NCBI GenBank assembly: GCA_903923925.1
Contig: CAIXZF010000063.1
Coordinates: forward strand, 1 to 64,000
DNA length: 64,000 bases
Direction: 5' to 3'
From: an uncultured Bacteroidales bacterium
Lineage (GTDB): Bacteria > Bacteroidota > Bacteroidia > Bacteroidales > CAIXZF01
The position numbers and the translations under genes were made by a program. Below the pieces are notes generated by a model. It was given only the letters and a program-made list of their open reading frames with translations, searched no databases and had not been told where the DNA came from. Shown here one piece after another: positions 13,970-31,688 of this stretch; positions within the stretch are counted from its first letter, which is position 1; each line of letters opens with the position of its first letter.

Positions 13970-15217
13970 TTAGATACTGATAGAGAATAATTTGGACATC
14001 AATAAAGCGGGAAGAAATCGAACCTTTTTATCTTTTAAATTCAAATTTTCGTTTATTAAAAATGATTTTGCAACATCAAATTCACTGTTGAAGGCATTTA
14101 ATCCTCTAAAGTGTTTTGGTCTGGCAAAATTGGTCGCTTTCACTTCTATTGACAATATTTTCAGGAAATCATTCACGATAAAATCAATTTCCAGGTTGTC
14201 ATAGGTTCTGTAGAAATTGATTTGAGTATGAGCCGGAAAACTCTTAAGAATCTCAAGCAGCACATAATTTTCAAGCAGAAAAGGATAATCTGTTCGCTGT
14301 TCAGGGGCATTCAAATTCCTTGCAATTAAATTCCTCAGGCCAGTATCCAGAAAATAGATCTTTTTCATTTTTGTAAGATTTCTTCTTCCACTACCTCCAA
14401 TTGGTTCAATTAACTTTACGATATACATCTGTTCCAGTAACAATAAATATTCATCACATTTTTTGTTAATAAGACCAGATGTACGACTTAACTCATTGAC
14501 ATTTAATAAATTTGAATTTTGAAGACTTAACAAGCGAAGCATCTTATTAAACCCAGCTACATCTTCATTCCTTACATAACTTCTGACATCACGAACGAGA
14601 TAGGTTTGGAAAATATCATTAAGAAGATTAATTTTCTCTTCACCTGAACTGGTTAAAGCCAGTCTGGGAAAACCACCATAGATAATGAAGTTTTTTAAAT
14701 GTGCAAAAAGCGTTTTATCAATTGCTGCATATTCAATATCAGGGTTATATAATCCATATTTATAAAAAGAATCTTCATCACAGAAGTTGAGATATTCTGA
14801 AAAAGACAATGAAAAGACTTCCACAATCCGGACTCTGCCAGCAAGGGATTCTTCAACTTTTTGTCTTATATCAAGACTTGAACTTCCAGAACAAAGAATT
14901 TTAAAATCCGGAAAATGATCAGTTATCAACTTTATCATCAAGGAGATATTGGGTATGAACTGAAATTCATCCAACAATAAAACACCTTTTTCTGGTAGTA
15001 AAAAAACAGAATTCATCCATGATTTTACTGAACTGAATGATTGGAATAACTCAGCATTTTCAGGATCCTGGCCATTCAGAAATTGTGTTTGTGTGTCGAA
15101 CTCATGCATCCGCATAAGCGTAGATTTACCAACTTGTCTTGCGCCTATCAATACAACAACAGGAACTAATTTAAAAGCGCTAATAATTTGTTCTTGATAA
15201 AATGGGCGAGGAATCAT
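13970..15217 (-). CDS. AAA ATPase with DUF4143 C-terminal domain
   Basis: VVVLIGARQVGKSTLM, GVLLLDEFQFIPN, ILCSGSSS, C-terminal FYRTYDNLEIDFIV...IEVKAT; start set to MIPRPFYQEQ (15217), because the longer ORF start (15277) runs through an operator-like palindrome. Confidence 0.85.
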   Translation of the reverse strand: MIPRPFYQEQIISAFKLVPVVVLIGARQVGKSTLMRMHEFDTQTQFLNGQDPENAELFQSFSSVKSWMNSVFLLPEKGVLLLDEFQFIPNISLMIKLITDHFPDFKILCSGSSSLDIRQKVEESLAGRVRIVEVFSLSFSEYLNFCDEDSFYKYGLYNPDIEYAAIDKTLFAHLKNFIIYGGFPRLALTSSGEEKINLLNDIFQTYLVRDVRSYVRNEDVAGFNKMLRLLSLQNSNLLNVNELSRTSGLINKKCDEYLLLLEQMYIVKLIEPIGGSGRRNLTKMKKIYFLDTGLRNLIARNLNAPEQRTDYPFLLENYVLLEILKSFPAHTQINFYRTYDNLEIDFIVNDFLKILSIEVKATNFARPKHFRGLNAFNSEFDVAKSFLINENLNLKDKKVRFLPALLMSKLFSISI

Positions 15218-15222
15218 AATAA

Positions 15223-15290
15223 CCCGTAAATTTATACATATTTGTACAAATTTACGCGTAATTTTACTTAAAATCAAATATTTTTACGGG
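15223..15290. promoter_or_regulatory. Operator-like palindrome upstream of DUF4143 ATPase
   Basis: cccGTAAATTTATACatatttGTACAAATTTACgcg plus a third half-site ttttACGGG at about 15282-15290. Confidence 0.45.
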
Positions 15291-16018: not shown

Positions 16019-16285
16019 CTACTTCACAAAATAGCTTACAAACAAGCCATCGACTTCTCTTGTGAAAACTTCGAGTCCAGCATCTTTTACTTTTACAATG
16101 AGAGGTTCAGGCAAAAATGGTGTTGTAAACTCCATTACTTCTCCAGCTTTCAGGCTTCCAATTAATCCAAGTACTTCTCCAACCGGATGGCCACCAGCAG
16201 CCAGGGTTGGCCTGGCATCGAAACGGATTTTAATTCTATCTGTCTGCTCCCAGATGGTCAGATTACTTTTTTCAGTTATATTCAT
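16019..16285 (-). CDS. DUF2249-like small protein
   Basis: 88 aa; DARPTLAAGGHPVGEVLGLIGSLKAGEVMEFTTPFLPEPLIVKVKDAG. Confidence 0.65.
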   Translation of the reverse strand: MNITEKSNLTIWEQTDRIKIRFDARPTLAAGGHPVGEVLGLIGSLKAGEVMEFTTPFLPEPLIVKVKDAGLEVFTREVDGLFVSYFVK

Positions 16286-16288
16286 TGA

Positions 16289-17521
16289 TTAATCATTTTT
16301 AGAATAAGATAATAATCGTTGTTCTCCTTCCAAAGCACGAAGGTGTGTAAGGTCCTGGGAATATTCAAGTGTTCCCATATAATTTCCTGCTTTGTCGCGT
16401 AAAGCAAAATACTCTATGTAGATAAAAGTGCCATGCATATTTATCCAGAAGGGAGCTCTGCTTTCTTTACCACTTTTAAAATCATCAAGAATTTTCTCTA
16501 CCACATCAACACTTGAGGGAGGATGACACATTCTGACGTCACGACCGATAATAGCCCGGCTTCTTGGAAAAATCCGATGTTCTCCCATGGAGAAGAAACG
16601 TACTTTATCATCTTTATCGACGAAAGTTACATCAATTGGCATTGTATTAAGGATGATTTCCAGTTCTTCAAGGTTGAAATTTCCGCTAGGGAACTGGATT
16701 AATCCAGGAGCAGATGTGAGTTGCTCATTATCAATCCCTTCTGGATTCCAATCAATTTGAGGATCGTAAAGGCAATATCCAAACTCCATTGTCTGAGTAT
16801 AGATATTGTACCAATCCGAATCCGAAAGTTTATCCATTGTCATTGGGAACATGATTTCCTCTTCCTTCAGAGTCATATCGCTGATGGCTTTCATGGCCGG
16901 TAAAAGTGTGTTCTCAATTATTTCAGGTAAGGCAGCTATTGCAGGAAGCACATCTGATGCCAAAGATGCTATTGCAGATTTAAGCAAAACACGGGTTTCA
17001 TCATGTTTGCCCCACATTACTTTAGGCGGGCCGGTAATTCCATAACTTTCTAGGTAAGGGAACAGAAGATATTCTTTACGTTTATAATGTTTATCAACAT
17101 CCATAAGGCTGTTAAACATTGCACGCATTTGCATCAGATAAGGAACAAGCTGATCATCAGTAAGTTTAATTGCCTGAGGAAAAAGCAGTTCAATATTATT
17201 AATTACGTTAAGCAATTCCCTGTTCTCCATTAGAAATGTATCAACAGGATGCCCTTGCGGAATTTGTTTAGCCCCTGAGTGATCGATAATTCCATCGAGC
17301 GCCATAGTATGAATGTCGCAGAATTTAAGTACTTCTTCTGCAGGCAAACCTTCATCTATTAATTCCTGTTCAACCTCCACAACTTCATCGTATGGAATTT
17401 CTTTAAGCAGAGAAACTAATCGGGTTCTAACCATATCTGGTGCTTCACCCTTGTGTAACTGCAGTATCATATGCTTAAGTAATTCCCTGCGCTTCTGTGA
17501 ATTGTTAATGAGTTCGCTCAT
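16289..17521 (-). CDS. DUF438 protein with hemerythrin-like and PAS domains
   Basis: 410 aa; QIPQGHPVDTFLMEN, DVDKHYKRKEYLLFPYLE, WGKHDETRVLLKSAIA, MTLKEEEIMFPM, PAS-like MPIDVTFVDKDDKVRFFSMGEHRIFPRSRAIIGRDVRMCHPPSSV. Confidence 0.88.
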   Translation of the reverse strand: MSELINNSQKRRELLKHMILQLHKGEAPDMVRTRLVSLLKEIPYDEVVEVEQELIDEGLPAEEVLKFCDIHTMALDGIIDHSGAKQIPQGHPVDTFLMENRELLNVINNIELLFPQAIKLTDDQLVPYLMQMRAMFNSLMDVDKHYKRKEYLLFPYLESYGITGPPKVMWGKHDETRVLLKSAIASLASDVLPAIAALPEIIENTLLPAMKAISDMTLKEEEIMFPMTMDKLSDSDWYNIYTQTMEFGYCLYDPQIDWNPEGIDNEQLTSAPGLIQFPSGNFNLEELEIILNTMPIDVTFVDKDDKVRFFSMGEHRIFPRSRAIIGRDVRMCHPPSSVDVVEKILDDFKSGKESRAPFWINMHGTFIYIEYFALRDKAGNYMGTLEYSQDLTHLRALEGEQRLLSYSKND

Positions 17522-17533
17522 TTTTTTACGATT

Positions 17534-17866
17534 TTAATTTTCTTTAATCATGATCAGCAACATCTTAAATTTTGTAATAGCATTAACTGCATGCGGATGG
17601 TTTGCAGGCATGATAATACTTTCGCCAGCAACCAGGTGGAAAGGAATGTTTTCAATAACAATTTCTGCCTCTCCTTCAATTACCTGAACCATTGCATCAA
17701 AAGGGGCTGTATGCTCACTCAATTTCTGATCTGCATCAAACGAAAAAAGAGATACATTCCCGGTATTTTTCTGGATAACCCGTTTGCTGATAATCCCATT
17801 TTCAGAATATTCAACAAGCTTGGTGAAATTTAAAATTTTTGCTGTTTCGAAAAGATTTGTTTCCAT
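17534..17866 (-). CDS. Cupin-domain protein
   Basis: 110 aa; LSEHTAPFDAMVQVIEGEAEIVIENIPFHLVAGESIIMPANHPHAV. Confidence 0.88.
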   Translation of the reverse strand: METNLFETAKILNFTKLVEYSENGIISKRVIQKNTGNVSLFSFDADQKLSEHTAPFDAMVQVIEGEAEIVIENIPFHLVAGESIIMPANHPHAVNAITKFKMLLIMIKEN

Positions 17867-17976
17867 AACATCTTAGTTTTATAAGTTTTTTCCTTGAAAT
17901 GAAATGCAAAGATAATTTTAATTCGGTATTCTATTACCTAATTGCTGTAATTATTTTTATTGTATTGATTATCTCC

Positions 17977-19164
17977 TTATATAAATTTTAATCTGACCTC
18001 TTTCAGGTATTTATCTTCCAGTATTTTGGCGATTCGTTTTACCACAGTCCTCCGGATTTCGAGTTCCACCGGCAGGCTGGGATCCTGGTGTGCAATGTTA
18101 ATTCGGGTTCCGATCAGAAATTCAATTTCGTCGCTTTCAAGGAAAAGTTTAACAATCTGATCAGCAGGACCTTTACCCAAACGGGTTGTGCTATTGTAAC
18201 GTTTGAGTATTTCAGCTACCTTTCCGAGCGTCAGTATTCCCTCAGTGATTAGATCAACTCCATCCATAAAAGACAGCGGTGGAAGGTCGGGGTCGTGAAA
18301 TTCGAAAGAATCAGTAATTTCCCGTTTTAGTTCCCTGCCAATTATCTCTACAGTTGTTGCTCCGCAGATAATCTTTTTACCGTCGTATTCTCCCACCCTG
18401 CTGGCAAGTTCCAAATCATTGTCCTTTTCAAAAGGCGGACCTGTGCAAAGCAATAATTTTCTTGGATTCCGGAAATACAGTACTGCCGCAGTAGTATCAT
18501 CTTTAGGCAGATGCTGGTCGTTTGCCGAAGACATATTAACCAATTTTAAGGCCAATCGTGCTGCTGAAATATCAGGTGTTAAAGTAATCAGTCGTTCAAT
18601 ATACTCCATGAGATTTTCACGCCCCCAGCCGAAAGGATATTTTGCAGTCCCCATTCCGGATTGAACAACTCCATCCGAACAGATTATCATTCGGTCCTCT
18701 TTCTCCGGTTTAAAACTGCAACAGCGAAGTTCCTTACCTTTCGTTTTGTCACTTAAAAGCAGAATATCAGACCAAACCGGATCATAAATCGCATTGCCTC
18801 TAAAGATTATACATTGTGGATTGTCATATTCCAGAATGCGCGTTTCGCCATCGAGTTCTATGTCGATAATGGTAAACGTTGAATAGCTAATTTGCCGCTC
18901 GCTGTCAACAGGCAATGTATTCATAATAATTTCAGCTATTTTCCTGAATTCCTTGTGTTCATTCGTAAAATTGTATGCCATTGTTGCAGTGAGGGTTGCA
19001 AGTACATTCGCTTTAATTCCATGCCCAAGACCATCAGAAAGGACAACAATAAGCCTGTTTTCTTCACGTACACGACTGGAAATAAATACATCTCCACAAA
19101 TTTTACTTTCCCAGTGATTTACATGCTGGTTGCTAATTTCGACAAATGGAAGGTCAGACATCAA
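17977..19164 (-). CDS. SpoIIE-family PP2C-like phosphatase
   Basis: 395 aa; VVLSDGLGHGIKANVLATLTA, MIICSDGVVQSGMG, DDTTAAVLYFR. Confidence 0.85.
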   Translation of the reverse strand: MMSDLPFVEISNQHVNHWESKICGDVFISSRVREENRLIVVLSDGLGHGIKANVLATLTATMAYNFTNEHKEFRKIAEIIMNTLPVDSERQISYSTFTIIDIELDGETRILEYDNPQCIIFRGNAIYDPVWSDILLLSDKTKGKELRCCSFKPEKEDRMIICSDGVVQSGMGTAKYPFGWGRENLMEYIERLITLTPDISAARLALKLVNMSSANDQHLPKDDTTAAVLYFRNPRKLLLCTGPPFEKDNDLELASRVGEYDGKKIICGATTVEIIGRELKREITDSFEFHDPDLPPLSFMDGVDLITEGILTLGKVAEILKRYNSTTRLGKGPADQIVKLFLESDEIEFLIGTRINIAHQDPSLPVELEIRRTVVKRIAKILEDKYLKEVRLKFI

Positions 19165-21020
19165 AGTTCTTTCTTATCATTATTATGAAACTCAATGATT
19201 GAGTTAAGGATTTTTTCGGTCCGCGATGCCCCTTCTCCAAGTATAAACGCAATTTTCTGGACAAATTCGAGGTTTTCGTCTATAGCCTCTGAAACCCGGC
19301 GGATAACTTCTTCTTTCCGGATTTCGGGAAGGAACATATCGCGGATAACGGCGCCGACAATTTTATTTTTTCTGATCGTAAATACGGAAACGTTTAAGAT
19401 TCTATCTTCATAATGCACATCTCTGTTCAGCACATCATCATCATTCTGAAGCACATATGAGAATAAATTGTAAAACTGATACGGCAACAATGTCTTCAAA
19501 TCTGCACCTTTCAGTCCTGGTATTATATCGCTGATTTCTTCTGCTTCCTTGCCGAGTGTTTCGATAAATGTTTTATTCGACTGGATAATTTTCAATTTAT
19601 CATCAACTATTACCACACCTGATGGAAGTTTTTGAAGCATCGCAGTAGTCATCTCCATTGCCTCTCTCGCAAGCTGTTGCTCAATGCGGGCGGTTCGTTC
19701 CGACTCTTTAAGGGCATCCTGGGTTTTAGCAAGCTTTTCGTTGGTTTGTTTAAGGGTTTTAATATATTCCTGACGATTTTTAAGGGAATATGTGAGGCAC
19801 ATCTCTGTTTTTGCAAGTCCTTGAGCCACAGCTATTGCAAACTCCCGGCAAGAAGTATAACCACATGTACCACAACCTTTTTCATCATTCTCATGAACTT
19901 TACCAAGCACTTTTAAAATTTCCTGGATATTTTCCTCTGGAGGAAACTCAATACGCTGATCGTCAACCTTATATTTTCTCGACAGATCGAGATCACCGTA
20001 TTCAATCATCTGTTCTGACCAGTCTTCCTTGTCAAAATCTGCAAAACGTTTGTTTGCATAGTCTACAACTCTCGTCCTTCTTACAAATTTGCTCGCATTG
20101 GTCGACATTCCAGGACCCATCATACATCCCTGACAGTAGAAAATATTCATATGGTGCCTGATTGAATCCAATTCATGCTCAAAAGAATTCAAGGCATCGA
20201 TAATTGATTCTCTTCCATCGGCAGTAATTATTTTTCCTGATTGAAGATTTTCACTGATATTGGCAATTTCGAGAATTCCATTGCTAATCGGGTAAAGTGC
20301 TCCTTTATATCCATGGGGTGAATCAAATTCAGAAAACTCAAGCGTACTTTCCGAGATAGAGAACTCTTCGAAGAGTTTTCTCAGTTCAGGGAAAGTTAAA
20401 ACACAATCAACTTTACCATCACCTTCGCTATTGATAGCTTCAACCTTGCTGTCAATACAAGGTCCAATGTAAACAATGCGCATTTCTTTTCCATGCCGCT
20501 TGTGCATAACCTTAGCCATTGCAATCATCGGAGAAACAATAGGTGCCAGGTTGTCAGCAAGTAAAGGATGGAATTTCTCCACGAAATGAACTATTGCCGG
20601 GCAATTTGCAGTTATATAATATTTGCCTTTAAAATTTGAAAACAGCTCTTCATATTTTTTAGCAACCAGATCTACACCAAAAGAAACTTCGTTTACAAAC
20701 TCAAATCCAATTTGTTTGATCATATTTACAAATTTCCTGTAGTCTGTAACATCAGCAAATTCAGCTGCAATCTCAGGAGCAAGTAGGGCTGCTACCCTTT
20801 GTCCCGATTTTACCAACTGCTTTACTTCCGGAGTAGAATCATAATAATTAATTGCAGATTGTGAGCAAACATCTATGCAAGAACCACAACCAATACATCT
20901 GCTCTGAACTACATTTGGAAATTCCTGATCAGCTTTCACCTCAATAGCTTTCACCGGACAAATCCTAACACAAGCATAACTCTGTTTACATTTATCCTTG
21001 TTGATTTCTATAATATTCAT
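19161..21020 (-). CDS. Sensory-type [FeFe]-hydrogenase C-terminal-domain protein with 4Fe-4S and PAS domains
   Basis: 619 aa; CKQSYACVRICPVKAI, CIGCGSCIDVC, ITANCPAIVHFVEKFHP, YIGPCIDSKVE, FYCQGCMMGPGMS, CGTCGYTSCREFA, PAS-like region (VVIVDDKLKIIQSNKTFIETLG). Confidence 0.85.
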   Translation of the reverse strand: MNIIEINKDKCKQSYACVRICPVKAIEVKADQEFPNVVQSRCIGCGSCIDVCSQSAINYYDSTPEVKQLVKSGQRVAALLAPEIAAEFADVTDYRKFVNMIKQIGFEFVNEVSFGVDLVAKKYEELFSNFKGKYYITANCPAIVHFVEKFHPLLADNLAPIVSPMIAMAKVMHKRHGKEMRIVYIGPCIDSKVEAINSEGDGKVDCVLTFPELRKLFEEFSISESTLEFSEFDSPHGYKGALYPISNGILEIANISENLQSGKIITADGRESIIDALNSFEHELDSIRHHMNIFYCQGCMMGPGMSTNASKFVRRTRVVDYANKRFADFDKEDWSEQMIEYGDLDLSRKYKVDDQRIEFPPEENIQEILKVLGKVHENDEKGCGTCGYTSCREFAIAVAQGLAKTEMCLTYSLKNRQEYIKTLKQTNEKLAKTQDALKESERTARIEQQLAREAMEMTTAMLQKLPSGVVIVDDKLKIIQSNKTFIETLGKEAEEISDIIPGLKGADLKTLLPYQFYNLFSYVLQNDDDVLNRDVHYEDRILNVSVFTIRKNKIVGAVIRDMFLPEIRKEEVIRRVSEAIDENLEFVQKIAFILGEGASRTEKILNSIIEFHNNDKKEL

Positions 21021-21037
21021 ATCACTATATTGAAGAA

Positions 21038-21292
21038 TTAAAGCCCCGCCATCACTTTATCAAGAATTTCCACTACCGAATTTTCCGTAACATGCTCGTA
21101 GAAATCGTCATTAATTTTTAATACTGGTCCGTTTTGGCAATGATCGAAGCAACGGGCTCCTCTAAAAATAATTTTTCCACTTAATCCATTTTCCCGGATA
21201 TAATCTTCTATAGCCTTACGCGTATGATTGTTACCTCTTGCAAAACAGGCACTTCCAAGACAAATTGTAATGTCTACTTTAACTTCTGACAT
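21038..21292 (-). CDS. 2Fe-2S thioredoxin-like ferredoxin
   Basis: 84 aa; CLGSACFARGNN...RGARCFDHCQNGPVLKIND. Confidence 0.88.
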   Translation of the reverse strand: MSEVKVDITICLGSACFARGNNHTRKAIEDYIRENGLSGKIIFRGARCFDHCQNGPVLKINDDFYEHVTENSVVEILDKVMAGL

Positions 21293-21312
21293 ATTTTGAT
21301 TTTCTAGTACTT

Positions 21313-21343
21313 CAAAGATAAAAAGATTTCAATCAAAATACAA
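21313..21343 (-). promoter_or_regulatory. Bacteroidota-type promoter for the leftward sensory operon
   Basis: On minus strand TTG (21343-21341), N20, TATCTTTG (21320-21313), about 20 nt before ATG at 21292. Confidence 0.6.
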
Positions 21344-21347
21344 TTTT

Positions 21348-21369
21348 CATAAATCATTGATTTTATGAT
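21348..21369. promoter_or_regulatory. Imperfect palindrome adjacent to leftward promoter
   Basis: TCATAAATCAtTGATTTTATGA. Confidence 0.35.
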
Positions 21370-21423
21370 ATTTAAAGCATTATATTGATTATTGTACCTT
21401 TTCTTATTGTTATTTATATAACA

Positions 21424-21441
21424 CTGTTAATAAATTAACAA
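21424..21441. promoter_or_regulatory. Candidate Rex operator
   Basis: cTGTTAATAAATTAACAa, perfect TGTTAA-N4-TTAACA core matching the Rex consensus TTGTTAANNNNTTAACAA except at the first base. Confidence 0.75.
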
Positions 21442-21446
21442 ATAAA

Positions 21447-21478
21447 TTTGTCTCTTTTTTACAAGAATTGTATCTTTG
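21447..21478 (+). promoter_or_regulatory. Bacteroidota-type promoter for the hydrogenase operon
   Basis: TTTG (21447-21450), N20, TATCTTTG (21471-21478): consensus TTTG-N19-21-TAnnTTTG. Confidence 0.75.
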
Positions 21479-21518
21479 TAAAATGGTTAACATTTATTCA
21501 TCAAATTAAAGCATCGGA

Positions 21519-21977
21519 TTGATGGAAGGTTTGGAATCTATTCTTGCCCGTTATCCAAAATATCAGAGGGATAACCTGATTCCCATTCTTCAGGATGTGC
21601 AGGAAGCATATGGTTACATCACTGAAGAAGCTATCATTTATATTGGCAGGCATTTACTCCTTTCCACAACCAAGATTTATGGAACTGCATCTTTTTATTC
21701 TAACCTTCGATTTTCCTCTAAAGGCAAATATCATTTTGAAATCTGCCATGGAACCAGTTGCCATCTGATTGAATCTGGTTCAATAATCTCTGAAGCTGAG
21801 CGAATTATGAAAATAAAAGCTGGACAGGTAAGCCGCGATGGAATGTTCAGTCTTGAAAAAAGTGCTTGTCTTGGTGCCTGTGGAGCAGGACCACTTTTAA
21901 CAATTAATGGCGAATATCACGAAAATATTAATATTTCAACACTCACCCAACTCATTGCTAATTTAAAAAATAGCTAA
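21519..21977 (+). CDS. NuoE-like subunit of NAD-linked [FeFe] hydrogenase (HydC/HndA type)
   Basis: 152 aa; LIPILQDVQEAYGYI, YGTASFYSNLRF, CHGTSCHLIES, SACLGACGAGPLLTING. Confidence 0.92.
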   Translation: MMEGLESILARYPKYQRDNLIPILQDVQEAYGYITEEAIIYIGRHLLLSTTKIYGTASFYSNLRFSSKGKYHFEICHGTSCHLIESGSIISEAERIMKIKAGQVSRDGMFSLEKSACLGACGAGPLLTINGEYHENINISTLTQLIANLKNS

Positions 21978-21989
21978 GCTCGACTACGA

Positions 21990-23939
21990 ATGGAAAATGG
22001 GTATTATCTGCCAATGCAAAGATTCCTTACCCGGGAGATTCTGTCCCGACAGTCAGAACCTCCCGATAAGGAAGAACTTGAAATTATTTCATTTTTCCGG
22101 CACGAAAGAATCAAAAATCCCATTTTATTTCTCGGAAGTGCAAGCTGCGGAAAAGTATCCGGGGCATCGAAATTACATGAGGAAATCCTCGAGTATCTTA
22201 ATATATATGGTATTAATGGAGAAATTCATGAAGTTGGCTGTATTGGTCTTTGCTCAATGGAACCCTTGCTTGATATTCAGATTCCAGGAAAGACCCGCGT
22301 TTCGTTTGCCAAAGTTAATAGCGACAATCTAACTGATATTCTGGATGGGGTTTTTAACAATACAATAATTTCTGATTTTGTTTTAGGACAGTACAGAAGT
22401 GATTTCCTTGAGCCCTGGCCTCATACTCCATTTATTGAAGAACTCCATTTTTTTAAATACCAGAAAAGACTTATTCTAAGAAATTGTGGAATTATTTCGC
22501 CTGGTATTATTGAAGAATACATCGCCAAAGATGGATATCGCAGATTTATTAAAGCGATCAGAACGTATGCACCTGAGAAGGTCTGCAGTATTATTGAAGA
22601 GAGCGGTCTTCGTGGCCGTGGGGGCAGTGGTTATCTGACCGGACAGAAATGGAGAGCAGCATTAACTACAGCTGATGATCAGAAGTACCTGATCTGTAAT
22701 GCAGATGAAAGCGATCCCGGAGCATTCATGGATAGAGCTATTATGGAAAGCGACCCGCACACCGTGATCGAAGGGATGGCAATCGCTGCTTATGCAATTG
22801 GAGCCTCAAGGGCTATTCTATTCATGAGAGAAGAATATAAACTTGCTAAAGAAAGAATGCAACTAGCTTTGCAGCAAGCTAAAACTTATGGAATTCTTGG
22901 TGAGGATATTTTTAAAAGTGGATTTAACCTGACAATTACCATACGAACTGCACCTGGCGCATTCATTCTTGGAGAAGAAACTGCACTGATAGCTTGCCTG
23001 GAAGGAAAACGGGCCAATCCCAGGCAGAAACCACCCTACCCTGCTCAATCGGGATTTCAAAAAAAACCAACGGTGGTTAACAATCTGAAAACTCTTGCCA
23101 ACATTCCTCTGATAATGCAGAATGGACCATTGTGGTTCCGCTCGATAGGCACAGAAGAGAGCAAAGGCACAAAAGTATTTTGCCTTACCGGAAAAACTGT
23201 AAATACCGGCATTATTGAAGTTGCAATGGGTACAACACTTAAAGAAGTAATTTTTATCATAGGGGGTGGAATTCCGGAAAATATACCCTTCAAAGCAGTG
23301 CATGTTGGCGGACCATTAGGGACAGCTCTAACCGAAGATAAACTTGATACAGCACTCGATTACGAAGGTCTCCGCAAAGTAGGTGCGAATATGGGATCGG
23401 GTGGGCTTGTTGTAATCGACCACAATGGGTGTATGCTCGACCTTGCCAGATTCTACATGGAGTTTCTTCAGCATGAAAGTTGTGGAAAATGCATTCCATG
23501 CAGAGAAGGTACAAGAAGAATGACAGAGATTCTTACAAGTATTACCAAAAGGCCTGCCAATGAAAGTTCTCATGAAACACTCGAACGTTTTAAAGGAATA
23601 ATGCAGCTTGAAAGCCTGGCTGGGGTAATAAAAGAAACTTCACAATGCGGACTCGGCCAGAATGCTTCTAACCCGGTGCTTAGCATACTTCAGCAATTCA
23701 GAACAGAAGTAGAAGAACACATATTTGATAGAAATTGTAAGGCAGGTGTATGTAAGGAACTGAGGGTGTTTTTTATTGACACCGACAAATGTACAGGTTG
23801 CACAGTTTGTGCAAAAAAGTGTCCTACTAACGCTATAATAGGAACTCCAACTAATCCACATTTTATTGTAGAGAATAAGTGCATTGGATGTGGTATCTGC
23901 TATGAGACCTGCAAATTCGTTGCCATTTTCGTAAAATAA
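21990..23939 (+). CDS. NuoF-like subunit of NAD-linked [FeFe] hydrogenase (HydB/HndC type)
   Basis: 649 aa; SGLRGRGGSGYLTGQKW, NADESDPGAFMDRAIMESDPH, GAFILGEETALI, ESCGKCIPCREGTRRM, two C-terminal 4Fe-4S motifs (CTGCTVCAKKCP, CIGCGICYETC). Confidence 0.95.
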   Translation: MENGYYLPMQRFLTREILSRQSEPPDKEELEIISFFRHERIKNPILFLGSASCGKVSGASKLHEEILEYLNIYGINGEIHEVGCIGLCSMEPLLDIQIPGKTRVSFAKVNSDNLTDILDGVFNNTIISDFVLGQYRSDFLEPWPHTPFIEELHFFKYQKRLILRNCGIISPGIIEEYIAKDGYRRFIKAIRTYAPEKVCSIIEESGLRGRGGSGYLTGQKWRAALTTADDQKYLICNADESDPGAFMDRAIMESDPHTVIEGMAIAAYAIGASRAILFMREEYKLAKERMQLALQQAKTYGILGEDIFKSGFNLTITIRTAPGAFILGEETALIACLEGKRANPRQKPPYPAQSGFQKKPTVVNNLKTLANIPLIMQNGPLWFRSIGTEESKGTKVFCLTGKTVNTGIIEVAMGTTLKEVIFIIGGGIPENIPFKAVHVGGPLGTALTEDKLDTALDYEGLRKVGANMGSGGLVVIDHNGCMLDLARFYMEFLQHESCGKCIPCREGTRRMTEILTSITKRPANESSHETLERFKGIMQLESLAGVIKETSQCGLGQNASNPVLSILQQFRTEVEEHIFDRNCKAGVCKELRVFFIDTDKCTGCTVCAKKCPTNAIIGTPTNPHFIVENKCIGCGICYETCKFVAIFVK

Positions 23940-23950
23940 ACCCGCGCCAG

Positions 23951-25675
23951 ATGCTTTTTACAATTGAAGTCAATAATAAACAGATTAAGGCACTCAAGGG
24001 TGAAACAATTCTCTCAGCACTTAACCGTAATGGCATTAGTGTTCCAACGCTTTGTTATATGCCCAAACTCAGTCCCACCGGAGCCTGCAGGATGTGTGTA
24101 GTTGAAATTGAAGGAAAATCAGACCTGATACCCTCATGCTCTTTTCCTGTTGAAGAATGGATGAAAATCAGGACACATTCTCCAAGAGTTATTAAAGCCA
24201 GAAAAACGCTGGTGGAGCTTCTTCTGGCAAACCACCCTGATGATTGTCTTTATTGTGTTAGAAATACTAATTGTGAGCTTCAAAAACTTGCCAGTGAACA
24301 TAATGTTCGGGAACGGAGATTCCATGGACGAAAAAGTGTGTTGAAACTAGACCAGAGTTGCGCACCTATAGTTCGGGACCCCTCTAAATGTGTCCTTTGC
24401 GGTCGTTGTGTCAGGGTTTGTTCTGAAATCATTGGTGTGTCTACATTTGAATTTACAAATAAAGGAATAGATACTGCCGTTGGAACAACATATGGAAAGC
24501 CATTAAACCTCTCAAATTGCATAACATGCGGACAGTGTATTCTGGAATGTCCAACGGGAGCTCTCTATGAAAAAGAAAGCTTCAGTCTTCTGCAGGAAAC
24601 TTTGCATAATACAGAAATTTATCCTGTAATTCAATGCAGTCCTTCGGTTTCTGTTGCAATAGCTGAAGAATACGGGATCAAAGCAGGTAAGGATTTCCAG
24701 GGATTATTGTTCGCAGCCCTGAGAAAAATAGGTTTCAGAAAGGTGTATGATACAGGATTCGGGAATGACATAAACGCCTTGAATGTAGCAACAGAACTCG
24801 CAGACAGAATTCGGAACAATGAAAAACTTCCAATGTTTAACAGTTGCTGCCCTGCCTGGGTTAAATATGCTGAACAATATCTGCCTGAATTGCTCCCTCA
24901 GCTTTCGCAACAACGGTCGCCACAGCAATTAATGGGACGGCTTATTAAGCAGAATCTTTTCACTGCAAATTCAATTTCACCAGAAAAAATATTCTCTGTT
25001 TCAGTAATGCCATGTACCGCTAAAAAATTTGAAGCTCAACGTCAGGAAATGACATTTAATAGTGTTAGTGATGTAGATATGGTTTTAACTACACGGGAAT
25101 TAGCTAAATTATTCAGGTTAAACGGGATCGATTTTACCGCTGGTGAATCAGAACTTGCAGATTCCCCATTTGGAATTAAAAGTACAGCCTCCAGGTTATA
25201 TGGAATCAGCGGTGGTGTAGCAGAATCTGTACTTAGAAGTCTACACTTTCAACTTACCGGCATTGAAATGCCTCAGGTGAAAGTTCCTAAAATACGCGGT
25301 TTAAAAGCCAGAAAGGATGTTAGAATTCAGATGGGGGATTTTGAAGTCGGAGTTATTGCCGTGAGCACGGTTATCCAATTACAGCAAGTTCTTAAAGAGA
25401 TCGAATCAGGAAAATCCGTATACCATTTGATCGAAGTAATGGCATGTCCGGGAGGATGTATTAACGGTGGTGGGCAGCCTTTTACAAAGGACGAAAATGC
25501 TCTTACTGCAAGAATGAAAGCTATTTATGATTCTGATGAAAAAGACTCTGTTAAATCTGCCCATAAAAACCCTGGAATTAATGAAGCGATGAGGCTGATT
25601 ATTAAAGAATTGGAAGGAAATGAAACTCACAATAAATTCGTAGCGACTTTCGAAAAAAGAAGTGTTTTATTATAG
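23951..25675 (+). CDS. Catalytic [FeFe] hydrogenase, group A (HydA/HndD type)
   Basis: 574 aa; 2Fe-2S CYMPKLSPTGACRMC, CVLCGRCVRVC, CITCGQCILECP; H-cluster motifs FNSCCPAWVKY, VMPCTAKKFE, EVMACPGGCINGGGQP. Confidence 0.96.
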   Translation: MLFTIEVNNKQIKALKGETILSALNRNGISVPTLCYMPKLSPTGACRMCVVEIEGKSDLIPSCSFPVEEWMKIRTHSPRVIKARKTLVELLLANHPDDCLYCVRNTNCELQKLASEHNVRERRFHGRKSVLKLDQSCAPIVRDPSKCVLCGRCVRVCSEIIGVSTFEFTNKGIDTAVGTTYGKPLNLSNCITCGQCILECPTGALYEKESFSLLQETLHNTEIYPVIQCSPSVSVAIAEEYGIKAGKDFQGLLFAALRKIGFRKVYDTGFGNDINALNVATELADRIRNNEKLPMFNSCCPAWVKYAEQYLPELLPQLSQQRSPQQLMGRLIKQNLFTANSISPEKIFSVSVMPCTAKKFEAQRQEMTFNSVSDVDMVLTTRELAKLFRLNGIDFTAGESELADSPFGIKSTASRLYGISGGVAESVLRSLHFQLTGIEMPQVKVPKIRGLKARKDVRIQMGDFEVGVIAVSTVIQLQQVLKEIESGKSVYHLIEVMACPGGCINGGGQPFTKDENALTARMKAIYDSDEKDSVKSAHKNPGINEAMRLIIKELEGNETHNKFVATFEKRSVLL

Positions 25676-25678
25676 CAA

Positions 25679-27676
25679 ATGGTAATCGATAAAAATTGTG
25701 TAAGGCGACAATTGGTTTTCACCGTAAAGGACAGGTGCAGAGTTTGTTATACCTGTCTGAGGGAATGTCCTGTTAAAGCCATTAAAATAATAAACGGCCA
25801 GGCAGAAGTTATTCATGAACGCTGCATTGGGTGTGGTAATTGTATAAAAGTGTGCAGCCAGGATGCAAAAGTCTACCTTAAAGGTATTGACGAAGCTTTT
25901 GTTTTGTTAGGAGGTGGAAAAAAAATTATCGCTTGCATTGCACCTAGTTTCCCTGCAGAATTTGCTGAATTTGAAGATCATAAAATTCTTGTGGGAATGA
26001 TTCGTGAACTTGGATTCGACTACGTTACAGAAGTTGCATTTGGTGCCGACCTGGTTGCAAAAGAATATCGGGATCTATTGTCTAATGGAAATGAATCACC
26101 AAGTATTTCATCAGATTGTCCAGCTATCGTATATTACATTGAGCATTACTATCCTGAGTTTGTCCCTTATCTGGCAGGAATTGCTTCCCCAATGGTTGTA
26201 ATGACCAGAGTTGTTAAAGAAAAGTATGGCAATGATTGTTATGTGATCTTTATTGGTCCTTGTATTGCAAAAAAAGCTGAAACCAACGAAGTGGATGAAG
26301 TATTGACATTCAGAGAATTAAGAAAAATGTTCGAGATTAGAAATATCCTTCCCTCTAACATTATCCCTACTGAATTTGACCCTCCTCTCGCTGGCAAAGG
26401 AGCTATTTTCCCGATGAGTGGCGGACTGCTTTCCACCTCTGAACTTCATACTGATTTGTTTGAAGGCGATATTCTTATAGCTGAAGGACGAATAAATATT
26501 CGGGATGCCGTGAAGGAATTTGAGGAAGGGCTGGTTAATACCAGGCACCTTGAATTGCTTTGCTGTGAAGGTTGTTATATGGGTGCTGGCATGTCGCCTG
26601 AAGGCCGTAAGTTTTCCAGAAGAAATAGAATCAGCAACTATGTAAGCAAAAAGCTTCAGGCACTTGATGTAGAAGAACACAAAAAAAACATTGAACTTTA
26701 TACAAATCTGGACCTCAGAACCAGCTTCATTCCACGCGATCGACGGATAATTAAGCCTTTGGAACCAGATATAGAAATAGTACTGCAAACAATGGGGAAA
26801 TATTCTGCTAAAGATCTGCTTAATTGTGGTGCTTGTGGGTACGATACCTGTGAGGATCATGCAGTTGCAATTTTTCAGGGTTTGGCTGAAAATGAAATGT
26901 GCCTTCCCTATACCATAGAAAAACTCCACAACTATATCGGAGAACTAAACATCTCAAACGAGAAACTGGCAACAGCCCAACAGGCTTTGCAGCAATCTGA
27001 AAAGCTCGCATCCATGGGGCAACTTTCAGCAGGGATTGCACATGAACTTAACAATCCATTGGGAGTTATCACTATGTATTCCAATATTTTAATGGATGAA
27101 GTTCCTGCTGAGCACCCAATGCGAACCGATCTTCAGCTCATCGTCGATCAGGCTGACCGTTGTAAAAAAATTGTTGCAGGATTGTTGAATTTTGCCCGCA
27201 AGAACCAGGTAAATTTTTGCGACGTAAATGTTTGCACAATTATCGAACACAGCATATCCAGTGTAGTTGTACCAGATAACATTAACATCTCCCTTGAAGT
27301 AAGTATTTCGGATCCTGATGCCCGCATCGATTCAGACCAGATGACGCAGGTATTTACGAATCTGATTAAAAATGCTATTGACGCAATGCCATATGGAGGG
27401 GTATTGAAAATACTTATAGATGGTGACGAAAATGAGGTGAGTTTTTCCTTTTCCGATACCGGTACAGGAATAAATCCTGAAGATATGGGAAAATTGTTTA
27501 CTCCATTTTTTACAACTAAAGGCATTGGGAAAGGAACAGGGCTGGGACTCCCTATTATTTATGGAATCGTAAAGATGCATAAAGGCAACATTAATGTGAT
27601 TTCAAATATTGATCCAGTTAAAGGTAAAACAGGAACTACTTTCACAATAAGTATACCTCGGATTGGAAATATCTGA
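25679..27676 (+). CDS. Sensory-type [FeFe]-hydrogenase domain fused to histidine kinase
   Basis: 665 aa; CRVCYTCLRECP, CIGCGNCIKVC, SSDCPAIVYYIEHYYP, FIGPCIAKKAE, LLCCEGCYMGAGMS, CGACGYDTCEDHA; HisKA GIAHELNNPLGVI and HATPase NLIKNAIDAM, DTGTGI, GTGLGLPI. Confidence 0.93.
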   Translation: MVIDKNCVRRQLVFTVKDRCRVCYTCLRECPVKAIKIINGQAEVIHERCIGCGNCIKVCSQDAKVYLKGIDEAFVLLGGGKKIIACIAPSFPAEFAEFEDHKILVGMIRELGFDYVTEVAFGADLVAKEYRDLLSNGNESPSISSDCPAIVYYIEHYYPEFVPYLAGIASPMVVMTRVVKEKYGNDCYVIFIGPCIAKKAETNEVDEVLTFRELRKMFEIRNILPSNIIPTEFDPPLAGKGAIFPMSGGLLSTSELHTDLFEGDILIAEGRINIRDAVKEFEEGLVNTRHLELLCCEGCYMGAGMSPEGRKFSRRNRISNYVSKKLQALDVEEHKKNIELYTNLDLRTSFIPRDRRIIKPLEPDIEIVLQTMGKYSAKDLLNCGACGYDTCEDHAVAIFQGLAENEMCLPYTIEKLHNYIGELNISNEKLATAQQALQQSEKLASMGQLSAGIAHELNNPLGVITMYSNILMDEVPAEHPMRTDLQLIVDQADRCKKIVAGLLNFARKNQVNFCDVNVCTIIEHSISSVVVPDNINISLEVSISDPDARIDSDQMTQVFTNLIKNAIDAMPYGGVLKILIDGDENEVSFSFSDTGTGINPEDMGKLFTPFFTTKGIGKGTGLGLPIIYGIVKMHKGNINVISNIDPVKGKTGTTFTISIPRIGNI

Positions 27677-27714
27677 CGTTAAAATTTCACTTATAAGCAT
27701 GAAAAATAAAAAAA

Positions 27715-28101
27715 ATGCAAAAAACAGTTTTAATAGTAGATGATGACCCTGACTACCTCATAATTATGAGGTTGAAAGTTCAGCAGTTTGGTTTTGATGT
27801 AATTACAGCTGAAGGACAAAAAGAAGCAGAACGAATTCTGGAAACGCTTAAACCAGATCTGGCAATTCTCGACCTGATGATGGAAACTGAAGATAGTGGC
27901 TTTATTCTTGCCTATAAAATGAAACGGAAATATCCTGATGTACCTGTTATAATTGCAACTGCAGTAACTGCAGAAACCGGAATGAGCTTTGATCCTTCAT
28001 CCGAAAGTGATAAGGAGTGGATTAAGGCCGATCTTTTCCTCGATAAAGGAATTCGAACTGACCAACTTCAAAAAGAAATAAAAAAACTACTAAAACTTTA
28101 A
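27715..28101 (+). CDS. Single-domain response regulator
   Basis: TVLIVDDDPDYLIIM...LAILDLMMETEDSG...PVIIATAVTAE. Confidence 0.88.
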   Translation: MQKTVLIVDDDPDYLIIMRLKVQQFGFDVITAEGQKEAERILETLKPDLAILDLMMETEDSGFILAYKMKRKYPDVPVIIATAVTAETGMSFDPSSESDKEWIKADLFLDKGIRTDQLQKEIKKLLKL

Positions 28102-28111
28102 CTACCAACAA

Positions 28112-29239
28112 ATGTCTACTTTTAAAATCCTGGTGGTTGACGATGAACCCGGAATCAGGTCGGGAACAAAACGAATTCTTCAAAACTTCAAAGTTGATTA
28201 TCCATTTATGGATGAATCTGTTGATTTTGAAATACTTGAAGCAGCAACAGGAGAGGAAGCTATTGAGATTATTGATGCAATTCAGCCTGATATTGTCCTA
28301 TTAGATAATAAATTACCAGGCATTCAGGGGATAGAAGTTCTGGAATACATTAAACAGAAAGCATATGATATTCTTGTAGTAATGATTACATCGTATGCCT
28401 CACTTGAGCTGGCTGTAAAGGCTACCCGCGACGGTGCCTTCGATTTTATTCCAAAACCATTTACACCCCAGGAACTTCGATCATCACTCGAAAATATTGC
28501 CAAACAACTGTTTCTGAAACGAATGACTCAAAAGCTCAACACAGAAGGTAAACATATCCGGTTTCAGTTTTTATCTGTTTTGTCGCATGAACTTAAAGCC
28601 CCTTTAAATGCAATTGATGGCTACCTGAATATTATTAAAGAGAAGCAAATGGGGAACGATCTGAGTTCCTATATGGAAATGATCGACCGTTCATTGGAAC
28701 GTATTAAAGGTATGCGCCTGCTAATTCTGGATCTTTTGGATCTTACCAGGATTGAATCGAATAAACCAATTAAAGAATTTGAGGAAGTACCACTTAATGA
28801 TATTGCAAGATCAGCCCTTGACACTTTACGTCCTTATTCAATTCAAAAGGATGTAAATATGTACCTGAATATTAATGAAAGACTCACATACCTGTCTGAT
28901 GCCAATGAGATGCAGATAATTTTCAATAATTTAATCTCAAATGCAGTAAAATATAATAAAAATGGTGGCAGAGTTGATTGTACTATAAAATCTGACAAAG
29001 ATTTTATATATATTTACATTGCTGATACTGGGATTGGAATCGTTAAAGATGATTTCGAAAAAATATTTAATGATTTTGTAAGAATAAAAAGTGCTCAAAC
29101 CCATAATATTTCAGGCAGTGGACTGGGTTTAGCCATTGTAAAAAAAATCGTTGAAAAGTATAAAGGTACGATAGATGTTAAGAGCAAATTAGATGAAGGT
29201 AGTATCTTTACTGTGACTTTGCCTAAAAATAGAACCTGA
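28112..29239 (+). CDS. Receiver-histidine kinase hybrid
   Basis: 375 aa; ILVVDDEPGIRSG, DIVLLDNKLPGIQGIEVL, FIPKPF, VLSHELKAPLNAI, NLISNAVKYN, DTGIGI, GSGLGLAI. Confidence 0.92.
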   Translation: MSTFKILVVDDEPGIRSGTKRILQNFKVDYPFMDESVDFEILEAATGEEAIEIIDAIQPDIVLLDNKLPGIQGIEVLEYIKQKAYDILVVMITSYASLELAVKATRDGAFDFIPKPFTPQELRSSLENIAKQLFLKRMTQKLNTEGKHIRFQFLSVLSHELKAPLNAIDGYLNIIKEKQMGNDLSSYMEMIDRSLERIKGMRLLILDLLDLTRIESNKPIKEFEEVPLNDIARSALDTLRPYSIQKDVNMYLNINERLTYLSDANEMQIIFNNLISNAVKYNKNGGRVDCTIKSDKDFIYIYIADTGIGIVKDDFEKIFNDFVRIKSAQTHNISGSGLGLAIVKKIVEKYKGTIDVKSKLDEGSIFTVTLPKNRT

Positions 29240-29266
29240 AAAACAGAACCTGAAAAACTATATCGC

Positions 29267-29908
29267 ATGATAATGCTAAACAAATTACCAGAAAAAACTA
29301 TTGAGAGACTAAGTCAGTACAGAAGAGCTTTACTAATAAGTTTAAATAATCTGAAGCATCATATTTACTCTCATGAACTTGCTGCCATGCTGCACATTAC
29401 ACCTGTTCAGGTAAGGAGAGATATAATGCTCATTGGCTACTCAGGGACTCTGCGGCACGGATATGAAATTAAAGAGCTGATCAATCTGATAGGTGCAATA
29501 ATTGATTCCGAGGAAGGCCAGAAAGCTTGTGTAGTTGGTTCAGGAAATCTTGGAAAAGCAATCGTAAGCTATTTCAATGGAAAAAGAACTAAACTTACTA
29601 TAGTTGCAGCTTTTGATATAAACCCTGACAAGGTAAACAGGGTTTATGCCGGGGTGCCCTGCTACCATATTGATCAGATGAGTAAGATTATAAAATCAGA
29701 CAATATCACAATGGCAATTATGACTGTACCTGGCAGTGAGGCTGCCAGAGTTGCTGAATCACTTGTTATTGTGGGTATTAAAGGAATACTTAACTACACA
29801 CCTACTCCTGTTAATGTTCCTGATAATGTGTATTTACAGGAATATGATATGATTACATCTCTTGAAAAAATTGCATATTTTGTAAAGAAAAACTCCCAGG
29901 AATTCTGA
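29267..29908 (+). CDS. rex: Redox-sensing transcriptional repressor Rex
   Basis: 213 aa; LPEKTIERLSQYRRAL, ITPVQVRRDIMLIGYSG, CVVGSGNLGKAIVSYF, AAFDINPDKV, GIKGILNYTPTPVNVPDNV. Confidence 0.95.
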   Translation: MIMLNKLPEKTIERLSQYRRALLISLNNLKHHIYSHELAAMLHITPVQVRRDIMLIGYSGTLRHGYEIKELINLIGAIIDSEEGQKACVVGSGNLGKAIVSYFNGKRTKLTIVAAFDINPDKVNRVYAGVPCYHIDQMSKIIKSDNITMAIMTVPGSEAARVAESLVIVGIKGILNYTPTPVNVPDNVYLQEYDMITSLEKIAYFVKKNSQEF

Positions 29909-29921
29909 TTATTTGCCTTAA

Positions 29922-30863
29922 ATGAAAATTTTTCATGATCCTGAAGAAATAAAAGATCTTTCCAGAACAGTTGTTACTACTGGCTCCTTTGATGGAGTCC
30001 ATATTGGTCATAAAGCTATCCTCAATCGCCTGCAAAACCTTGCGAGAAAAATTGATGGAGAATCTGTTTTAATTACTTTTCACCCACACCCCAGAAAAAT
30101 ATTATTCCCTGAAACTGCCGGGAAAAACCTTTTCCTGATAAATTCACAACAGGAAAAGATAGAGCTTCTCAAAAAAACCGGTCTGGATAATCTTTTGATA
30201 ATCAATTTTACACCTGAGTTCTCCCGAATGTCATCTTTTAATTTTATCCGAAAAATTCTGGTTGCTAAACTTAACGCAAAAAAAGTCATTGTTGGTTTTA
30301 ACCATCATTTCGGACATAAGCAGGAAGGTGGATATGAGGTACTCTATGAGTTAGGCAAATATCATGATTTTGAAGTAGAAGAGATTCCAGAGCAGGATAT
30401 TGAGAATGAGACAGTTAGTTCTACCAGAATTCGCAAAGCCTTACTTGAAGGAAAAATTCAGAGAGCAAACGCATATCTCGATCACTACTACATGATTATA
30501 GGAACGACAGAACAAATATTCCTTTCAGGAGTAGAAAGCAAACTACCTGTTTATCATGTCTCAATAGACGAAGATTGCAAGCTCATTCCACCTGAAGGAA
30601 CCTATGCAGTTAGTATTAAAATAGAAAACAATGCATATAAAGGGCTAATTTATATTGAAAATCGTGAGCAAACAGGATATACTCAAAACATTGGCAGATA
30701 CGTAGTTCTAATTCCGCTTGAGGAATTTGAATTAGCAAACCACAGACTGATAAAAATTTACTTTCATAAAATGATAAGAGAAATTCATCAGACAAACACT
30801 AAAATACCACTGAATGAAATACTTACAAACGACAAACCTATTGTTGAAGAACTGATTTTCTAG
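29922..30863 (+). CDS. ribF: RibF-like FAD synthetase; riboflavin-kinase domain divergent
   Basis: 313 aa; TTGSFDGVHIGHKAILNRL, ITFHPHPRKILFP, VGFNHHFGHKQEGGYEVL, VSSTRIRKAL; C-terminal domain lacks the GR.LGFPTAN and GxRPT motifs. Confidence 0.8.
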   Translation: MKIFHDPEEIKDLSRTVVTTGSFDGVHIGHKAILNRLQNLARKIDGESVLITFHPHPRKILFPETAGKNLFLINSQQEKIELLKKTGLDNLLIINFTPEFSRMSSFNFIRKILVAKLNAKKVIVGFNHHFGHKQEGGYEVLYELGKYHDFEVEEIPEQDIENETVSSTRIRKALLEGKIQRANAYLDHYYMIIGTTEQIFLSGVESKLPVYHVSIDEDCKLIPPEGTYAVSIKIENNAYKGLIYIENREQTGYTQNIGRYVVLIPLEEFELANHRLIKIYFHKMIREIHQTNTKIPLNEILTNDKPIVEELIF

Positions 30864-30893: not shown

Positions 30894-31688
30894 ATGCAGA
30901 TTTTTCCTGAGAAGCAGGCCAAAATGAAAATCGTATTTCTTGGAACCGGAACTTCTACCGGTGTTCCTGTTGTGGCTTGTGATTGTGTTGTTTGTAAATC
31001 TAAAGATTCCCGGGATACCAGGCTCAGAACCTCTCTCCTTTTATATATTGATGATCAGTGCTTTGTAATCGATTGTGGTCCCGATTTCCGGTATCAGATG
31101 ATAAGGGAAAATGTGGAAGATATTCACGGTATTCTGCTTACACATCAACACAGAGATCACATATCAGGTTTGGATGATGTTAGAGGATTCAACTATGTTT
31201 TAAACAAACCGATTGATGTTTTTGCAGCTGAAGAGGTAATCAAGGCTATTTACACCGAATATCCTTACATTCTGAGCGAAGCCAGATTCTTTGGTGCACC
31301 TCAGCTTATTTTTCATCGAATTGATGAACAGCCTTTTATGGTAGGTGATTTTGAATTCACAACGATAAGTGTAATGCATAACCAACTAAAGGTCTTTGGT
31401 TTCAGAATAGGAAATTTCACATATATTACCGATGCCAGTTTCATTAGTGTTGAGGAAAAAGAGAAAATACGCGGTTCTAAGGTAATAGTAATCAATGCCT
31501 TAAGGAATTCTCATCATGTTTCACATTTTTCATTGCAAGAGGCAATTGACATAGTCCAGGATCTGAACCCTGATCAGGCCTACATAACTCATATGAGTCA
31601 TTTTATCGGTTTGCATTCTGATGTGGAAGAAAAACTTCCGGCAAATATACATTTGGCTTACGATACTCTAAGTATCGAGATTAATTGA
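30894..31688 (+). CDS. MBL-fold metallohydrolase (PhnP-like)
   Basis: 264 aa; FLGTGTSTGVPVVACDCVVCKSKDSRDTRLRTSLLL, LLTHQHRDHISGLDDVRGF, YITHMSHFIGLH. Confidence 0.88.
   Translation: MQIFPEKQAKMKIVFLGTGTSTGVPVVACDCVVCKSKDSRDTRLRTSLLLYIDDQCFVIDCGPDFRYQMIRENVEDIHGILLTHQHRDHISGLDDVRGFNYVLNKPIDVFAAEEVIKAIYTEYPYILSEARFFGAPQLIFHRIDEQPFMVGDFEFTTISVMHNQLKVFGFRIGNFTYITDASFISVEEKEKIRGSKVIVINALRNSHHVSHFSLQEAIDIVQDLNPDQAYITHMSHFIGLHSDVEEKLPANIHLAYDTLSIEIN

Follow-up and report, generated by a model that had tools for sequence, protein, structure and literature searches.

A conserved island of one Bacteroidota order pairing two sensory-type [FeFe]-hydrogenases and Rex with a HydABC trimer of altered proton pathway

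In a stretch of 64,000 nucleotides from an uncultured Bacteroidales bacterium (contig CAIXZF010000063.1; hereafter the window) two divergent gene arms encode three [FeFe]-hydrogenase modules, namely a trimer of NuoE, NuoF and HydA (HydABC) and two sensory-type hydrogenases (HydS), together with Rex. We read this locus, with a probability of about 0.6, as a conserved H2/NADH control island of a single order, built around the two HydS and Rex, in which the trimer is probably a slow enzyme or a poise sensor and to which an adjoining cupin-DUF438-DUF2249 trio is unrelated. What makes the island interesting is that a single unit of ~13 kb, present in many families, unites the two kinds of sensory hydrogenase, an NADH sensor whose operator can be recognised and a proton-path-defective trimer.

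The dual-sensor island and its conservation

All open reading frames named in the initial annotation between 16019 and 30863 were recovered in place and on the expected strand, and the families proposed for them were matched in Pfam, DUF2249 below the cut-off. Those of the island, with its regulatory elements, are the following.

17977-19164, minus: SpoIIE-type Ser/Thr phosphatase (PF07228, 3.1e-12)
19161-21020, minus: HydS, group C3-like, with 2x[4Fe-4S], H-domain, C-terminal FeS domain and PAS-like region (PF02906, 2.6e-40)
21038-21292, minus: 2Fe-2S thioredoxin-like ferredoxin, similar to the NuoE C-terminus, first gene of the leftward arm (PF01257, 2.4e-12)
21313-21320, minus: TATCTTTG, Bacteroidota-type -7 element of the leftward arm
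21407-21441, between the arms: tandem Rex-type double operator, TTGTTA-N6-TAACA-N-TGTTA-N6-TAACAA (22/23 matches)
21471-21478, plus: TATCTTTG, rightward -7 element, on the NuoE side of the Rex double site
21519-21977, plus: NuoE/HydC, 2Fe-2S subunit, likely start at ATG 21522 (PF01257, 2.4e-42)
21990-23939, plus: NuoF/HydB, FMN/NADH subunit with C-terminal 2x[4Fe-4S] (PF01512, PF10589)
23951-25675, plus: HydA of the trimer, 574 amino acids (PF02906, 3e-80)
24785-24787, plus: HydA codon 279 (position of E279 in CpI), Val
25679-27676, plus: HydS, group C1-like, fused to HisKA-HATPase (PF02906, 3.6e-48; PF00512; PF02518)
27715-28101, plus: single-domain response regulator (PF00072, 2.6e-15)
28112-29239, plus: receiver::histidine kinase hybrid without DNA-binding domain (PF00072, PF00512, PF02518)
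29267-29908, plus: Rex (PF06971, PF02629; NCBIfam Rex, 192.9 bits)
29922-30863, plus: RibF, for FMN/FAD synthesis, with which the conserved part of the rightward arm ends (PF06574, 7.6e-48)

To place the island among its relatives we surveyed 246 genomes of the same Bacteroidota order, counting HydS with a HydS profile and not from the general PF02906 listing, and found sensory hydrogenases in 127 of them. Eighty HydS loci were read, 40 before a hypothesis on the proton path (see below) was written down (discovery set) and 40 fetched afterwards as a hold-out. Thirty-five genomes, the window's own included, carry the dual-sensor island, that is, a PAS-type HydS divergent to NuoE-NuoF-HydA and a histidine-kinase-type HydS; by their family labels they represent 21 families. 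These islands agree mostly gene for gene, usually with SpoIIE and the ferredoxin on the left and the response regulator, the receiver-kinase hybrid, Rex and RibF on the right, the ferredoxin and RibF each being present in most of them. From NuoE through RibF the genes of the window are nearly contiguous. Because the core, HydS(C3) facing NuoE-F-HydA-HydS(C1), is kept in 34 other genomes, the arrangement is not due to chance, and the proposal that a C1 histidine-kinase and a C3 phosphatase sensor belong with a trimeric HydABC, and Rex with them, is upheld. One dual island (L178, G186:C24) has ~8 kb of other DNA separating the ferredoxin from NuoE.

The sensory character of both HydS is visible in their residues. 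At the positions of CpI C299, M353 and M497, whose alteration marks sensory hydrogenases (PMC10055695), HydS(C1) has Asp, Gly and Leu, and it joins an H-domain with the four H-cluster Cys to a histidine kinase on one chain, as expected of group C1. HydS(C3) has Asn, Gly and Phe there, its ligand Cys are kept, and it is encoded with a Ser/Thr phosphatase, the SpoIIE gene overlapping its own by 4 bp on the same strand; its placement in C3 reflects gene context and clade separation from the C1 type, not a formal HydDB class, and its PAS region was read by eye, Pfam giving no PAS match. In the tree the two types form separate clades, with the window HydS(C3) monophyletic with 34 others. Their pairwise similarities correlate (Spearman 0.62), as expected from co-inheritance, and host kinship alone would account for some of this. 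The C-terminal ~165 amino acids of SpoIIE (17977-18477, minus) are strongly conserved in 33 island phosphatases; this region matched no family in Pfam or NCBIfam, and an AlphaFold prediction of it alone (pLDDT 37) was not used.

The gap between the ferredoxin and NuoE contains TTGTTATTTATATAACACTGTTAATAAATTAACAA (21407-21441), a candidate Rex site that fits what we take to be the operator consensus, a palindrome of the TTGTTAA-N4-TTAACAA type. The 35-bp tandem consensus was partly derived from island sequences, so the test lies in the comparison with shuffled sequence and not in the match: at p<0.01, 20 of 33 islands score above Markov shuffles, and the joint core TAACANTGTTA is found in 14 of 33 (0.05 expected). 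Over the whole genome TGTTAANNNNTTAACA has five perfect sites and its reversed control none. Two of the five share an identical 16-bp core, one in the island and the other at C25:42769 (L113 9770), upstream of the HydB gene of a second HydABC, and no Rex gene other than the island rex was found in the genome. Rex control, as the initial annotation had supposed, is thus backed by operators, themselves predicted. A third Rex-type site, also tandem (L188 3201; G000:C35:532200), precedes a gdh-like gene, by eye a glutamate dehydrogenase. As for promoters, four of the five TATCTTTG copies in the window sit 28-51 bp upstream of a start, with a total count equal to chance expectation; scans for sigma70-type promoters and for terminators did no better than shuffles.

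The proton pathway and the role of the trimer

By its subunits the trimer of the window is of the A3 type: HydC is present, HydB has FMN/NADH motifs and C-terminal clusters, and HydA has the [2Fe-2S] and [4Fe-4S] set (the NCBIfam A6 model scores 649 bits on the trimer, under its cut-off of 765). We aligned HydA with CpI and three HydABC HydA chains using phmmer, without gaps around E279. Where CpI has ADMTIMEEATEL, the window HydA has NDINALNVATEL, that is, E278N and E279V. In CpI, E279 is a proton relay, and its change to Ala or Gln leaves <1% of activity (PMC6226526). With E279V the window trimer lacks an intact group-A proton pathway (R286-E282-S319-E279-C299), and because of this it is probably slow in H2 turnover. 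HydA motifs L1-L3 had been considered as proof of catalysis and were discarded, being overturned by the E279 column.

The pathway is incomplete in all the islands. All five residues were kept in none of the dual islands (0/34 discovery, 0/1 hold-out). The survey also provides natural controls, C1-only operons with intact HydA. These operons consist of NuoE-NuoF-HydA-HydS(C1), the response regulator and the hybrid, without the left arm, and in the loci so read are directly followed by genes that read by eye as hydG, hydE and hydF; all five residues were kept in 6/6 of them in the discovery set and in 26 of the 33 evaluable in the hold-out (32/39 overall). In dual islands E279 or E282 is gone in 35/35, with diverse replacements; across the 35 HydAs all 19 of 19 Fe-S/H-cluster Cys are 100% kept, C299 in 49% and E279 in 14%. 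Every hold-out genome with a single HydS has an intact HydA (22/22). Each of the seven C1-only loci with a broken path comes from a genome in which the HydS profile gave two or more hits. In five of the seven a second HydS of PAS-type length stands on another contig, with SpoIIE beside it in one (G158); for the other two (G164, G071) the HydS count is the only basis, and this sorting of the exceptions was made post hoc. In the HydA tree one deep branch with support 100 divides the altered sequences, whose own branches are longer, from the rest; their association with the C3 arm is a single event of the past, after which position 279 was replaced in various ways.

The genome offers another candidate for catalysis. 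It comprises 4.6 Mb in 117 contigs with five PF02906 genes, three in the island and two on contig C25, where they belong to two NuoE/NuoF/HydA sets whose HydAs keep E279 and C299. The initial annotation had counted the island trimer as the one catalytic module. This is now doubtful: the Fe-S and H-cluster Cys speak for it and the lost pathway against it, and it is more likely that catalysis is carried out by the second HydABC locus, on C25. The HydA of the first C25 set (L113 7532), like that of a relative (L112 6913), has Ser at CpI C300; we rejected this as a defect, since HydA 7q4v_A has Ser there too. At least four PF02906 matches occur in every dual-island genome, so each has at least one further hydrogenase, and up to nine dual islands have a convergent canonical HydA/NuoE/NuoF set 3′ of SpoIIE. 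Of the 28 C1-only genomes with one HydS (22 from the hold-out and 6 from the discovery set), 15 have no PF02906 gene beyond that HydS and the operon HydA among the matches listed. This difference fits a division of labour and does not prove it.

We thus propose the following mechanism, in which the parts of the two HydS and of Rex are taken from known families. HydS(C1) would read H2 and its fused histidine kinase would feed the two receiver proteins, HydS(C3) would read H2 and act on the SpoIIE phosphatase, and Rex would read NADH/NAD+ and bind both the tandem operator between the arms and the site upstream of the C25 HydB. The trimer, wired for electrons, may be slow or itself belong to the sensing apparatus: it would act as an NADH-connected sensor of redox or H2 poise, or as a low-capacity enzyme, rather than as the main hydrogenase. 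Catalysis would fall to the C25 HydABC, whose proton-path residues are canonical and which is preceded by a Rex site at HydB. In a stricter form, which we find conceivable but doubtful, the trimer would be a third, NADH-connected H2/redox sensor, a multi-subunit hydrogenase with every metal cluster retained and fast proton transfer sacrificed, which together with both HydS and Rex would set expression of the canonical HydABC. If the trimer is indeed slow or regulatory, annotated HydABC in these bacteria are over-counted as H2 producers, and the islands constitute a natural series of E279 variants for the study of proton transfer.

Several observations weigh against this proposal. Neither receiver protein carries a DNA-binding domain, and 13 of 33 islands are without a significant double Rex site. 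The window HydA keeps C299, M353 and M497 and is less altered than most, and the NADH/FMN motifs of the window HydB are intact. Four hold-out genomes (G167, G070, G174 and G171) have at least two HydS hits and yet an intact HydA. Because a single split sets the altered HydAs apart, the coupling of a lost proton path to the C3 arm counts as one evolutionary event and not as many. Finally, by analogy with group D, another proton route could exist in the island HydA (PMC10407848). On this last point hangs the principal alternative, to which we concede a real chance while not favouring it, that the trimer is an ordinary NAD-linked, possibly bifurcating, A3 hydrogenase with a different proton route, and that the HydS pair and Rex merely tune expression. 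The complete set of cluster Cys and the intact HydB motifs of the window agree with this, as does the best match of HydB and HydA being bifurcating HydABC of known structure (for HydB, 7q4v_B, 7e-178), and group D is a precedent for the evolution of a different proton route. Against it speaks the loss of E279 or E282, with many different replacements, in 35/35 islands; no compensating acidic or His residue is conserved in the altered HydA clade, and the same genome has a canonical HydABC pair.

Another explanation is that the island HydABC is decaying: with a second, canonical cluster in the genome the old trimer would drift under relaxed selection and acquire no new role. It would account for the lower retention of canonical columns in the altered HydAs (0.797 vs 0.995) and for the longer branches of their clade. 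Judged by a strict pattern, the HydB NADH/FMN motifs are also aberrant in 28 of 35 dual islands, which is weak evidence because this pattern flags 3/7 canonical controls as well. Decay seems unlikely to us, as long open reading frames persist in 35 genomes of 21 families, the cluster Cys are invariant and gene order is preserved, the two HydS and Rex included; the islands examined yielded no decayed or lost copy, in a reading that was not a systematic search for losses.

The neighbouring cupin-DUF438-DUF2249 genes

Downstream of SpoIIE the window continues with three genes that we judge to be neighbours outside the island, and a maturase gene lies beyond its other end, outside the 16019-30863 range.

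17534-17866, minus: cupin (Pfam)
16289-17521, minus: protein with DUF438, hemerythrin and PAS_10 domains (Pfam)
16019-16285, minus: DUF2249 (23.9 bits, under the Pfam cut-off of 29.5)
36610-38040, plus: HydG maturase (TIGR03955, 498 bits; Radical_SAM and BATS)

The initial annotation took the trio for part of the leftward operon and for a possible O2/NO input to the control of one hydrogenase. Strand and order are as it described, the trio starting 110 bp downstream of SpoIIE on the same strand; a single operon is not required, since this gap contains a -7 element, TATCTTTG, at 17914-17907, so that the trio has a promoter-like element of its own. DUF438 occurs in 43 of the 246 genomes. Across 45 DUF438 loci read, the window's among them, DUF2249 is adjacent in 40 and the cupin in 13, and no HydS island adjoins DUF438 apart from that of the window. 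Conversely, the trio is found in 0/34 of the other dual islands within the stretches read, and in the nearest relative (G094) island and trio are both present, 74 kb apart. At the level of the phylum no DUF438 lies near HydS in genomes having both, the nearest being ~110 kb away. Seven of the 43 DUF438 genomes have no [FeFe]-hydrogenase among the PF02906 matches listed. Since the recurrent neighbours of DUF438 are nitrite/NO genes (NrfH, NrfA, Rrf2, Hcp, NorB and ScdA), the trio most likely serves nitrite/NO metabolism and is most likely an unrelated neighbour of the island.

That the trio should be a functional third input is, in our view, very improbable. Besides its position in the window, it could draw on the co-occurrence of DUF438 and HydS by genome (33/43 vs 94/203, Fisher p=3e-4), a value uncorrected for kinship and distinct from linkage, and on two genomes in which the genes lie not far apart: in G158 HydS is ~15 kb from DUF438, and in G156 (L179 16845-18600, G156:C26) the trio and a C1-only operon are ~10 kb apart, with apparent HydG/E/F genes and one for a Crp-like regulator in between. 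G046, the sister of G156, has the trio without any [FeFe]-hydrogenase among the matches listed. The comparison of neighbourhoods in relatives therefore shows no conserved linkage to hydrogenases. In sum, of the parts first proposed as inputs, the two HydS and Rex are supported as belonging with the trimer and the DUF438/cupin input falls away, and the count of one catalytic module is doubtful.

Elsewhere in the window, a 1608-aa UvrA-like protein (31681-36507, minus) matches the UvrA DNA-binding domain twice, has several ABC hits and looks like two fused UvrA, and there are two AAA_14/DUF4143 ATPase genes (13970-15277 and 53298-54551, both minus). Sorting domains of the type IX secretion system (T9SS), which point to Bacteroidota, are also encoded.

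Relation to known systems

Some of these associations are already known, namely C1 beside HydABC-type genes, C3 with a phosphatase and Rex with HydABC (PMC7768429, PMC5037454, PMC8579813). For the paired, divergent C1/C3 island, the tandem Rex operator and the loss of the HydA proton path we found no description, a weak negative, as most subscription papers were outside the search.

HydDB defines C1 as histidine kinase-linked and C3 as phosphatase-linked [FeFe]-hydrogenases, with no settled role for either (PMC5037454), and H2 sensing by [FeFe]-hydrogenases is still putative. In C1 systems, such as ING2E5A_0849 of Petrimonas mucosa, a C1 hydrogenase beside hnd genes in the Bacteroidales (PMC7768429), the fused hydrogenase-kinase adjoins NuoE-NuoF-HydA as it does here. 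By its description the P. mucosa locus resembles our C1-only variant (L179-L184); the island adds the C3 arm, Rex and RibF, and its HydA is without the proton path. With the C3 group it shares a HydS with PAS-like region and a SpoIIE-type phosphatase, and differs in that its C3 arm runs away from an operon containing C1, the two sharing a Rex double operator. Relative to the A3 HydABC of T. maritima, A. woodii and related structures, the subunit set and Fe-S ligands are the same, HydB being nearest to 7q4v_B, whereas HydA has E279V and islands of this type keep the path in 0/35.

In Caldicellulosiruptor bescii the Rex regulon includes a bifurcating [FeFe]-hydrogenase (PMC8579813). An NADH-responsive Rex acting on HydABC is likewise predicted for the island, which differs in having a tandem 35-bp site in a divergent promoter, an internal rex and a second HydABC with the identical core. 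Finally, TmHydS (PMC10055695) and TamHydS (PMC10407848) have, like the island HydA, lost group-A proton-path and second-sphere residues with the ligand Cys kept; these are single-chain HydS, whereas in the island the loss sits in the HydA of an NADH-linked trimer.

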